Below, in pieces: positions 4,587 to 50,546 of a DNA stretch of 64,000 nt. The notes below the pieces were generated by a model, which ran no database searches, was not told the origin of the DNA, and worked only from the letters and a program-made list of their open reading frames with translations. The stretch's first letter is position 1; the number at the start of each line of letters is the position of its first letter. Source of the DNA: Terriglobus albidus (GTDB taxonomy: Bacteria; Acidobacteriota; Terriglobia; Terriglobales; Acidobacteriaceae); assembly GCF_025685425.1 (NCBI RefSeq), contig NZ_JAGTAS010000058.1, positions 806,001 through 870,000 on the forward strand, written 5' to 3'. The position numbers and the translations under genes were made by a program.

Positions 4587-4835
4587 CCCATACTTGAGTG
4601 CCTCATATCCGGGGTTCCCACGAGATATCCGGGGTTCCCACGAGCTTGCTCGGTTGGGGTGGTGTCTCGGCTACGCCGAGATGTGGGCATTCGCGCCCCG
4701 CGCGAACCATTTATTACCGCTAGTGTGGTGAACGTTCTGGGGGATAGCCGGCAACAGGGAAAATGCTCTAAACCAAACAAAAGCGAAGACTTCACCCGTC
4801 CCTCGTTAACACAGCCCCAAGCCCCAGAACTTTTT
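4587..4835. other. gene-free stretch with repeats after aspA
   Basis: No gene is seen. The stretch holds a perfect 20-bp tandem duplication (ATATCCGGGGTTCCCACGAG at 4605-4624 and again at 4625-4644), a hairpin unit of the GGGCATTCGCGC type (about 4650-4710), and a remnant of the 116-bp mobile element ending at 4770. Confidence 0.7.
4720..4770. mobile_element. truncated copy of the 116-bp palindromic element (remnant)
   Basis: Only the right end is recognisable: GGCAACAGGGAAAATGCTC followed by TA at 4769-4770, the same terminus as in the five full copies. The left half, including the central GGGCGTTTTC hairpin, is missing. The left limit is approximate. Confidence 0.6.
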
Positions 4836-12639: not shown

Positions 12640-12755
12640 TAGAGCATTTTCCCTGTAGGTGTAGTGTAGGGTTTCTACATCTATGGGCGTTTTCCGCAAT
12701 GAAAATGCCACGGCACTCTTCTTTCGGGAATACCGGCAACAGGGAAAGTGCTCTA
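12640..12755. mobile_element. 116-bp palindromic MITE-like element, copy A
   Basis: The element begins TA-GAGCATTTTCCCTGT and ends ACAGGGAAAGTGCTC-TA (right end with one change), so it has about 15-bp terminal inverted repeats flanked by a TA duplication. A central hairpin GGCGTTTTC/GAAAATGCC is present. It has no ORF. Its right TA is part of the TAG stop codon (12755-12753) of the minus-strand cytochrome c gene. Confidence 0.8.
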
Positions 12756-20557: not shown

Positions 20558-20673
20558 TAGAGCATTTTCCCGGTCGGTGTAGTCCAGGGGGTTCGCATCT
20601 ATGGGCGTTTTCCGCAATGAAAACGCCGCTGCACTCCTCTCCCGGGATACCCAGCAACAGGGAAAATGCTCTA
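20558..20673. mobile_element. 116-bp palindromic MITE-like element, copy B
   Basis: TA-GAGCATTTTCCCGGT at the left, AACAGGGAAAATGCTC-TA at the right, with the central GGCGTTTTC/GAAAACGCC hairpin perfect. It lies 13 bp before the mqnC start codon, so its right end is the mqnC upstream region. No ORF. Confidence 0.85.
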
Positions 20674-20686
20674 TCGTTAAAGAGAT

Positions 20687-21733
20687 ATGGGAATCACTCG
20701 CGAACAGGCCCTGGACTGCTTCCGCTCGGACGATCTGATCGGTATCGGCATGGAAGCTGACGCCGTACGCCGCAGGCTGCATCCTCACGGCATCGTGAGC
20801 TACATCATCGATCGCAATATCAACTACACCAACTTCTGCACCGAATATTGCACCTTCTGCGCCTTCTACCGGCCCCTGAAGGGCAAGCTCGCCAGCGAGG
20901 GCTACATCCTCGATTTCGAGACTATCTACCAGAAGATCGCCGAAACTGTAGAGATGGGCGGTACCGGTGTGCTGATGCAGGGCGGCATTCACCCCGACCT
21001 GAAGATCGAATGGTTCGAGTCCCTCTTCCGCGGCATCAAAGAGCGCTTTCCCCAGATCTGGCTCCACTGTCTCTCCGCCAGCGAGATTCTGGCCATCGCT
21101 GAATACTCTGAGCTCTCGCTGCGCGACACCATCATGCGCCTGCGCGACGCCGGCCTGCAGTCCATCCCGGGCGGCGGCGCCGAGATTCTCGACGACGAAG
21201 TGCGCCATCGTATCGCCCGGTTGAAGTGCAAGACGGAGGACTGGGTCAGCGTCCACCGTACTGCGCACGAGCTTGGTATGCGTACCACCGCCACCATGAT
21301 GTTCGGTGTCGGCGAGACCTTCGAACAGCGTGTGAATCACTTTGAGGTCGTCCGCCGCCTGCAGGAAGAGACCGGCGGGTTCACCGCCTTCATCCCCTGG
21401 AGCTTCCAGCCGAAGAACACTGCTCTCGGCGGCCGTGGCTGGGACGAAGCCACCTCGGTCGAATACCTGAAGACCCTCGCCATCAGCCGGATGTTCCTGG
21501 ACAACATCGAAAACGTACAGTCGAGCTGGGTCACGCAGGGCTTGAAGGTTCTGCAGATGGGCCTGCGCTTCGGCGGCAATGACGTTGGCTCCGTCATGCT
21601 GGAAGAAAATGTGGTGAAAGCCGCGGGCACGGCCAACTGCACTACCGAAGAGGAACTGCGTCGCATCATCCGCGATGCCGGTTTCCGCCCCGTCCAGCGC
21701 GACACCCTCTACCAGACGATGTTTCTGAACTAA
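20687..21733 (+). CDS. mqnC: cyclic dehypoxanthinyl futalosine synthase
   Basis: This radical SAM enzyme closes the dehypoxanthine futalosine ring in the futalosine route to menaquinone. The CX3CX2C cluster motif is CTEYCTFC (Cys51, 55, 58), preceded by NINYTNF as in MqnC and followed by AFYRPLKGKLASEGY. Further family blocks are GGTGVLMQGGIHPDL and SIPGGGAEIL, and an HxTAHxLGMRTTATMMFG-like segment. Length (348) is normal. AAAGAG is close to the ATG at 20687. The upstream 13 bp join a mobile element, so the promoter must lie in or beyond it. No other mqn gene is present here. Confidence 0.93.
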   Translation: MGITREQALDCFRSDDLIGIGMEADAVRRRLHPHGIVSYIIDRNINYTNFCTEYCTFCAFYRPLKGKLASEGYILDFETIYQKIAETVEMGGTGVLMQGGIHPDLKIEWFESLFRGIKERFPQIWLHCLSASEILAIAEYSELSLRDTIMRLRDAGLQSIPGGGAEILDDEVRHRIARLKCKTEDWVSVHRTAHELGMRTTATMMFGVGETFEQRVNHFEVVRRLQEETGGFTAFIPWSFQPKNTALGGRGWDEATSVEYLKTLAISRMFLDNIENVQSSWVTQGLKVLQMGLRFGGNDVGSVMLEENVVKAAGTANCTTEEELRRIIRDAGFRPVQRDTLYQTMFLN

Positions 21734-25434: not shown

Positions 25435-25550
25435 TAGAGCATTTTCCCTGTTGCTGGGTAGCCCGAAAGAGGAGTGAAGCGGCGTTTTCATTGCGGGAAA
25501 ACGCCCACAATGCGGAAACCCTACTCTACACCTACAGGGAAAATGCTCTA
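25435..25550. mobile_element. 116-bp palindromic MITE-like element, copy C (reverse orientation)
   Basis: TA-GAGCATTTTCCCTGT left, ACAGGGAAAATGCTC-TA right. Internal sequence is the reverse complement of copies A, B and D, including CGGCGTTTTCATTGCGGG. No ORF. Confidence 0.85.
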
Positions 25551-25785
25551 AGCGCTGAGGCGCTCTATACCAGCCTGGGGCAACGCCCCAGCTATGTGTT
25601 GCCAAAGAGAGTTAAAGGGCTGAATACCCGTTCCATAATTCCGCAGCCTAGCCAAGAAAAAACGATTCGCGCAACGCGCGAATCTCCCACCTATCGCGTC
25701 GCGATGGATGGGGCACCCAGTGTATGGCTTGTTTCGAATTGTTGATGCAGCAGGGGACTCAGCAACTTCAGCTTTGAGGGCCAAA
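25551..25785. repeat. GGGCAACGCCCC-type repeat cluster in a gene-free stretch
   Basis: The stretch between copy C and the terminator at 25804 holds no gene. It carries GGCGCTCTATACCAGCCTGG, GGGCAACGCCCC and AAAGGGCTGAATACCC, shared with the cluster at 41531-41800. It also has a degraded ACGCGCGAATC...GGGGCACCC unit. Confidence 0.6.
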
Positions 25786-35217: not shown

Positions 35218-35335
35218 TAAAGCATTTTTCCTGCAGGTGTAGTGTAGGGCTTCTGCATCCATGGGCGTTTTCTGCAATGAAAACGCCGCTCCACGCCCCC
35301 TCACGGGATACCCAGCAACAGGGAAAATGCTTCTA
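35218..35335. mobile_element. 118-bp palindromic MITE-like element, copy D
   Basis: Left end TA-AAGCATTTTTCCTG and right end ACAGGGAAAATGCTTC-TA, slightly decayed at the tips, with the central GGGCGTTTTC/GAAAACGCC hairpin. It sits between mreB and mreC. Its right TA is the TA of the mreB TAG stop (35335-35333). The reconstructed empty site reads TCGACTAGTCGA, a perfect palindrome. Confidence 0.8.
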
Positions 35336-41530: not shown

Positions 41531-41935
41531 AAGCGCTGAAGGCGCGCTCTATATCAGCCTAGGGCAACGCCCCAGGTTTTGGCGCCCACAAGACGTCAAA
41601 GGGCTGAAGGCCCGCCCTATAATAAGAGCCTTCAATCCGACCGTATCGTTTCGATAGGCATACAACGATTCACGAACCGTTTCGTTTCTGACGATTGGGG
41701 ATTATGGAGCGGGCCTTCAGCCCTCTTACCGTTTTCCTATCTCCGTACCTGGGGCGTTGCCCCAGGGTGGTATAGGTCGCGCCTTCAGCGCTCAGCACAT
41801 CTTTCTGGCTCAACAAAGAATAGCCTTTAGCCCTGGGCCTTCTCTGAATGCCAAAGAAAAAGTCCAAGGCTAGCGCCCATTTCTTTTCGAGCTGATTGAC
41901 GGAGGCTGAAGCCCGCGGCTCCCGCCCAAAAACTA
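41531..41935. repeat. inverted pair of GGGCAACGCCCC-type repeats in a 590-bp gene-free region
   Basis: The left unit (41531-41622) has GCGCTGAAGGCGCGCTCTAT, TAGGGCAACGCCCCAGG and AAAGGGCTGAAGGCCCGCCC. The right unit (41701-41794) has the same modules in reverse order and strand. About 78 bp separate them. Further decayed units (TTTAGCCCTGGGCC, GGCTGAAGCCCGCGG) follow to 41935. No gene is seen between 41353 and 41943. Confidence 0.7.
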
Positions 41936-50429: not shown

Positions 50430-50546
50430 TAGAAGCCTTTTCACTGTTGCTGGGCATCCCGCAAAAGGAGTGCAGCGGCGTTTTCATTACGGAAAACGCC
50501 CACAGATGCGAAAGCCCTGCACTACACCTACAGTAAAAATGCTCTA
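50430..50546. mobile_element. 117-bp palindromic MITE-like element, copy E (reverse orientation)
   Basis: Ends are TA-GAAGCCTTTTCACTG and CTACAGTAAAAATGCTC-TA, the most decayed of the full copies, with the inner GGCGTTTTC/GAAAACGCC hairpin intact. It lies between phoH and ybeY. Its right TA belongs to the phoH TAG stop (50546-50544). Confidence 0.75.

Follow-up and report, generated by a model that had tools for sequence, protein, structure and literature searches.

Six short palindromic elements in the 64,000-nucleotide stretch of DNA analysed here (the window; positions 806001-870000 of contig C28 in genome G000, 6.1 Mb in 58 contigs) raise the question of what these repeats are, how they came to their places, and whether their folded form matters.

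Copies in the window and across genomes

The six places of a 116-118 bp family reported in the preliminary description proved real, comprising five full copies and one remnant (Table 1). Full copies are flanked by TA on both sides, as had been stated, with a core of 112 bp that comes to 116-118 bp with both TA included, and the two copies described as lying in opposite orientation do so. The 15-mer end was found nine times in the window at no more than two mismatches, compared with 0.09 occurrences expected, and none of 100 dinucleotide shuffles reached nine. In the copy at 50430 the ends read TTTTTACTGT and ACAGTGAAAA in the orientation of the element, the change being present on both sides.

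Table 1. Copies of the element in the window and copies of its sister family at other loci.
Feature	Position	Strand	Length	Remarks
Remnant, right-hand 32 bp + TA	4737-4770	+		matches only approximately model positions 81-112
Full copy A, TA + 112 bp + TA	12640-12755	+	116 bp	
Central 9-bp hairpin of copy A, 6-nt loop	12686-12709	+		
Full copy	20558-20673	+	116 bp	clean empty site in G128, CTAT, one TA
Full copy	25435-25550	-	116 bp	absent in G128, flank there diverged
Full copy, decayed ends (AAGC...GCTTC)	35218-35335	+	118 bp	clean empty site in G128, CTAG
Full copy	50430-50546	-	117 bp	clean empty site in G128, TCTAC
Sister-family copy	L002:2105-2217			
Sister-family copy	L043:3990-4138			
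Sister-family copy	L060:4203-4314			
Sister-family copy	L063:287-399			
Sister-family copy	L064:1751-1862			
Sister-family copy	L113:3590-3701			
Sister-family copy	L209:7514-7614			
First-family copy inside a sister-family copy	L071:3014-3240			TA on both sides

Two further features of the window adjoin individual copies or repeat elsewhere in it. The 112-bp core of the copy at 20558 stops 15 bp upstream of the ATG of an ORF (20687-21733), and this ATG is retained at the empty site of the same-genus genome G128. An Acido-Lenti-1 RNA scores above the gathering score at 41532-41576 (minus strand); an 80-bp direct repeat at 41544-41623 covers part of it and has a 75% copy at 25560-25639, which directly adjoins the element copy at 25435.

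A search of the whole genome with the terminal 15 bp extended the family far beyond the window, returning 246 forward and 246 reverse ends at no more than one mismatch, and 0 and 0 for the reversed control pattern. A consensus was built from 59 copies chosen at no more than about 91% mutual likeness (26 from named records and MAGs, 18 from G000, 12 from G128 and 3 from G116); it is 112 bp long and bounded by 15-bp terminal inverted repeats (GAGCATTTTCCCTGT), with GGTGTAG in a subterminal position and, at the centre, a hairpin of GGCGTTTTC, 6 nt and GAAAACGCC with a 9-bp stem. Single copies, and the last units of arrays, end on the right in GC-TC-TA: across all groups (n = 177) this end was exact in 126, differed by one mismatch in 34, was otherwise changed in 15 and was of the tandem-seam type discussed below in 2, the corresponding numbers for G000 only (n = 62) being 48, 9, 5 and 0. 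Mean identity among 48 single G000 copies was only 0.85 (98% for the closest pair seen), and most insertions in this genome are therefore not recent. The copies had been described as having no ORF, and no coding frame was indeed recognised in them, but stops occur in just three or four of the six frames in 125 of 145 single copies. No named RNA family fell on the element at gathering score, and relaxed settings produced one chance-level match.

In a family sample of 150 genomes, 6 matched copy A; in an order sample of 397, a near-consensus copy had matches in 39, every one belonging to the same family. Five of the 18 same-genus genomes listed had a match, one of them (G262) by short pieces only, and 13 were without one. 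A 23-base motif was also found in at least 61 stretches from Granulicella mallensis X5P3, Bryocella elongata DSM 22489 and the Acidobacteria MAGs SH_60_12 and Bin6.3, and none of 72,556 plasmid and 50,697 phage records gave a match. Full-length matches in other genera (g64 and g34) reach approximately 71-88% identity, indicating that length and plan are stable. Going beyond the preliminary description, the 112-bp plan of 15-bp ends and a 9-bp central hairpin thus recurs across genera, and it recurs again in a sister family.

Insertion into TA and candidate transposases

Insertion was examined by comparison with G128, which is approximately 89% identical over the window. All five full copies are missing there: the sites of those at 20558, 35218 and 50430 are clean and carry a single TA, and the copies at 12640 and 25435 are absent within diverged flanks, part of the left flank of copy A being missing as well; the remnant could not be scored. 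Twelve G000 insertions had both flanks in G128 DNA, the comparison leaving aside 61 elements that lacked synteny in the DNA compared and eight matches whose flanks were short. The site was empty in nine (six single copies and three arrays), one insertion was shared (the single copy L043:2107), and two gave no clear call (the window remnant and array L035). Inspected by eye, the nine empty sites comprised six with a clean single TA, two with a changed dinucleotide and one that was messy. The reciprocal case was found once, in a G128 copy whose counterpart in the window is an empty site with one TA.

The target was further defined using 145 single copies, a set restricted to elements with 300 bp of flank on each side. 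In 82 of these TA stood on both sides; the other 63 had lost it to decay on at least one side. Among the 82, the TA was followed by R in 71 and preceded by Y in 47, compared with 38% and 39%, respectively, for TAs of the window overall, and the favoured target context is YTAR. In G. mallensis X5P3, five copies that are 100% identical each occupy a different TA-flanked site, each on a contig of its own, from which it follows that the family moved recently in this strain.

It is thus well supported that the element is mobile, targets TA and has mostly lineage-specific insertions. The earlier view of a non-autonomous mobile element that duplicates TA is borne out by ends numbering in the hundreds, by mostly unshared positions and by empty sites that keep just one TA, and none of three patterns that had been named as speaking against it was seen (a want of further copies, empty sites away from TA, or copies at orthologous positions in all relatives). 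The element is short, bears terminal inverted repeats and occurs in high copy number at non-orthologous places, which are the marks of a MITE. The number of ends, the terminal repeats, the duplicated TA, the empty sites, the largely lineage-specific insertions and the recent movement in X5P3 are shown by the data; the family is, very probably, a high-copy MITE of the RUP/ERIC kind, 112 bp long, with 15-bp GAGCATTTTCCCTGT terminal inverted repeats and insertion into, and duplication of, TA. A patchy distribution and the first-family copy nested, with TA on both sides, in a sister-family copy (L071) speak for the same reading. Such an element would be moved in trans by a DDE transposase recognising the 15-bp ends and duplicating TA.

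The preliminary description had derived the element from an IS630/Tc1-mariner transposon. This descent has so far found partial support: the TA target and its duplication agree with it; no transposase gene with such ends was found, and the ends of the resident IS630 differ. Two DDE_3 (IS630-type) matches were found in G000, both of one IS type: L029 is a complete 1114-bp IS with TTGATTCCTG ends at TA, and L030 is truncated where its contig stops. Two further copies of this type, 92% like L029, are present in G128. Across G000 and four relatives, none of 15 DDE_3 loci was bracketed by element ends, with a few single end-like matches (three mismatches) near them. DDE_3 was present in all five repeat carriers tested and absent from all three same-genus non-carriers tested, a co-occurrence that is suggestive but no proof.

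That same lack of an IS630 bracketed by element ends leaves room for a mover of another kind, such as an IS5-type transposase (IS427/IS1031 group) or an undescribed DDE enzyme. The IS427/IS1031 group has GAG ends and makes TA or TNA duplications, and the ends of the present element start with GAG and its target is YTAR. Against such a mover, the DUF4096 and DDE_Tnp_1 profiles had no match in G000 (0 and 0); ten DUF4096 loci from G116 and G052 showed no pair of element ends and a single end near only one (L180); and 15 DDE_Tnp_1 loci from G128 had a single end near one and an ordinary copy near another. We consider a transposase outside the IS630 type unlikely, though it is the strongest of the alternatives. 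As a separate observation, these G128 loci (L189-L203) include one set of ten DDE_Tnp_1 copies with the same score (361 aa) and another set of four (451 aa), with none in G000; the IS load in respect of DDE_Tnp_1 differs between the two genomes.

An autonomous element sharing the ends was not found in G000 by the three DDE models (DDE_3, DUF4096 and DDE_Tnp_1). The loci were also scanned for convergent ends 300-4000 bp apart at no more than four mismatches and outside known copies, which gave two pairs. One, 324 bp apart in the DDE_3 locus L166, does not bracket the gene; the other, 1614 bp apart in L086, encloses a 537-codon open frame for a non-transposase, which we take to be a quinoprotein-like enzyme. 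A pair of sister-family ends 1884 bp apart in L209 likewise encloses a non-transposase frame, which reads like a membrane protein. An IS630/Tc1-mariner enzyme would remain the most likely class of transposase for the MITE, its gene being either absent from G000 or missed by the three models.

Stem symmetry, sister families and the question of host function

The preliminary description had pointed to a G-U pair in the inner stem of copy A as a hint that the folded form matters. The pair is real (GGCGTTTTC/GAAAATGCC), but alone it says little about the fold, since across the 59 chosen copies this position holds 52 G-C, just 4 G-U and 1 A-U pairs and is unpaired in 2. Folding was better than that of shuffles in most cases tested (z-scores of -2.9 to -5.8 for DNA in eight copies, and of -1.2 to -6.1 for RNA in six strands), as is expected of a palindromic element. 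In the 59-copy alignment, ten doubly changed cells were counted, compared with 2.1 in shuffles, nine of them in the ends and one in the central hairpin. Four pairs were concerned, compared with 1.8 in shuffles, which is not extreme; neither the tally of pairs in which both sides had changed (reached by 31 of 500 shuffles) nor that of further pair types (28 of 500) stood out from chance.

The sister family provided a wider comparison. Eight copies occur in the DNA examined, one being interrupted by a first-family copy; the other seven are 101-149 bp long (five of them 112-113 bp) and mostly TA-flanked. Their ends are GAGCA(A/T)TTCTCCTAA or near, and their centre is GCCGTTTTC...GAAAACGGC, in which both arms are changed. 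No sister-family copy was found in the window at up to three mismatches. When 19 copies of both families and intermediates were aligned (rows L230 and L231 entered in opposite orientation in one alignment), 98.1% of 430 cells paired, and nine pairs changed on both sides, two of them in the central hairpin. Doubly changed cells numbered 38, compared with 12.4 in shuffles and with none of 500 as high, but they represent few events, as six rows owe theirs to a single inherited family change; the number of further pair types was within chance (96 of 500 shuffles as high). The idea that the central hairpin repeats the end motif (GCRTTTTCC) internally was discarded, since in the sister family the ends have changed without a matching shift in the centre.

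The suggestion that the fold matters is thus weakly supported within the family and better supported by paired changes between sister families, which indicate that both stems keep their symmetry as the sequence changes, and that both ends of such elements change together. The kept symmetry is equally compatible with a folded form and with inverted repeats bound by protein. The stable length and conserved central hairpin may be kept because they are needed by the mobile complex or for survival after insertion.

Alternatively, the family could be a domesticated repeat serving the host as folded RNA or DNA, for example as a terminator or an mRNA processing site, and the mostly better-than-shuffle folding and the double changes that keep both stems paired across sister families would suit such a role. 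The copies are also rarer in long open frames, those of at least 200 codons spanning 54 of 145 insertion sites compared with 470 of 600 random TA sites, a test that is crude at 59% G+C. Insertions largely unshared with the congener and the 13 listed same-genus genomes without a match speak against a host function, the terminal repeats of any MITE fold, and the central hairpin offers one doubly changed cell within the family; overall we find domestication improbable. Least credible by far is a REP/BIME-type element with a RAYT (Y1) transposase as its mover: G000 has ten Y1_Tnp matches and the element is palindromic and biased away from long open frames, but TA is duplicated at the empty sites, REPs are not known to make a target duplication, and three repeat-free congeners have Y1 matches too, so that the presence of Y1 is not tied to that of the repeat. 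The available text of PMC3733652 further gives a REP length of 20-40 bp, compared with 112 bp here.

Tandem arrays, their seam and known repeats

A gene-free repeat that targets TA is an ordinary kind of bacterial parasite DNA; the oddity, and new beyond the preliminary description, is the seam of its tandem arrays. Direct arrays of 2 to 4 units with a period of mostly 114-115 bp occur in G000, and more than four units are possible at contigs C42 and C55, whose ends fall within arrays; the family is thereby relevant to assembly. The seam is AAAATGC-GAY-TA-GAGC or a near variant and is not symmetric. An open-pattern search of the genome gave 29 seams at 18 loci; all were GC-G[AG](N)-TA-[GA]AGC, mostly with GATTA or GACTA, and TCTA was found in none. 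One further seam (L044, GCGTTTA) was too degenerate and was left unscored. All 26 G000 right ends scored with a following unit (19 arrays) were of the seam type, compared with 0 of 62 in single or last copies; in this scoring identical seam contexts were entered once.

Adjacent units elsewhere show TCTA or a sequence one mismatch from it, in three of three cases in G128 and three of three in two MAGs; the one-mismatch class takes in a G128 copy ending GC-GCTA, and a fourth MAG row (L071) is a sister-family neighbour outside this count. Two seam-type right ends without a scored next unit were found outside G000, in the last unit of the G128 array L136 and in MAG SH_60_12 (L099). After the L099 copy comes GACTAGAGCATTT, likely a remnant of the same seam, and beyond it the DNA is unrelated. 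Separately, at two places in G128 (L136:6737-6846 and 882-1105) the right end is without TC and continues as GCTA or GATA, which repeats the left flank, as if by a longer duplication.

Across 19 arrays and 45 units, units were more alike within arrays (identity 0.952) than between arrays (0.896, a value biased by the choice of array loci by exact pattern) or than single copies among themselves (0.853), and private variants were common to the units of one array. Neighbouring TA insertions were rejected as the source of the G000 arrays, since they predict GCTC-TA-GAGC, as in G128 and the two MAGs, which no scored G000 seam shows. Copying of the seam from the array's own left flank was rejected as well, GATTA being present in 1 of 18 left flanks and GACTA in 0 of 18. 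The array units do not form one clade either (14 changes compared with a shuffled mean of 16.6, 9% of 500 shuffles being as low), although later collapse and homogenisation could mask such a signal.

The seam lacks exactly the terminal TC. According to the available text of PMC2170065, the ISY100 transposase cuts two bases inside the 5' ends, and the two missing bases equal this inset; the TC-less seam is suggestive, and only that, of IS630/Tc1-mariner-type cleavage with a 2-nt inset. We tentatively put forward, as a possible though not the favoured outcome, that the seam is a product of end processing by the transposase, in which the last TC would be trimmed as by a 2-nt recessed cut and the end joined to GAY-TA-GAGC. 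Multimers would then arise by repeated joining or, with the same tentativeness for the two taken together, from one mobile dimer that formed once, uses its outer ends to move as a whole and collapses into single copies. The present data do not separate repeated joining from an old single dimer which spread, was homogenised and then collapsed. To our knowledge, no multimer-forming joining reaction has been recognised for TA-targeting elements. The arrays offer a testable handle on how mini-elements of this kind form tandem multimers, and the family itself adds to the Acidobacteriaceae a well-documented MITE that was recently mobile in one strain.

Among the papers listed, the open PubMed Central literature gave no description of the family, and its end sequence occurs in none of the texts there; comparison was made with better-known repeats. 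The pneumococcal RUP (107 bp, 108 copies, intergenic) resembles the element in short size, TA target and terminal inverted repeats (PMC2229807), but RUP ends resemble those of the resident IS630-Spn1, whereas a matching IS was not found here, and an array seam of the present kind is absent from the available part of the RUP description (PMC2229807). With ERIC/IRU (127 bp) and Correia/NEMIS it shares terminal inverted repeats, target duplication and TA termini, as given in the accessible sections of PMC2229807; the contiguous end pairs number 15 bp here compared with 7 bp in ERIC and 24 bp in Correia (PMC2229807), and these repeats, compared by description and not by sequence, differ in length and host phylum. 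ISY100, of the IS630-Tc1-mariner group, also inserts into TA with TA duplication, as far as the available text goes (PMC2170065), but differs in that a transposase gene with the ends of the present element was not found. A parallel to the arrays is BOX of pneumococcus, likewise a short interspersed repeat with a tandem array of variable number; in the portion of PMC3049150 available, only its middle boxB module is repeated, whereas here whole elements are.
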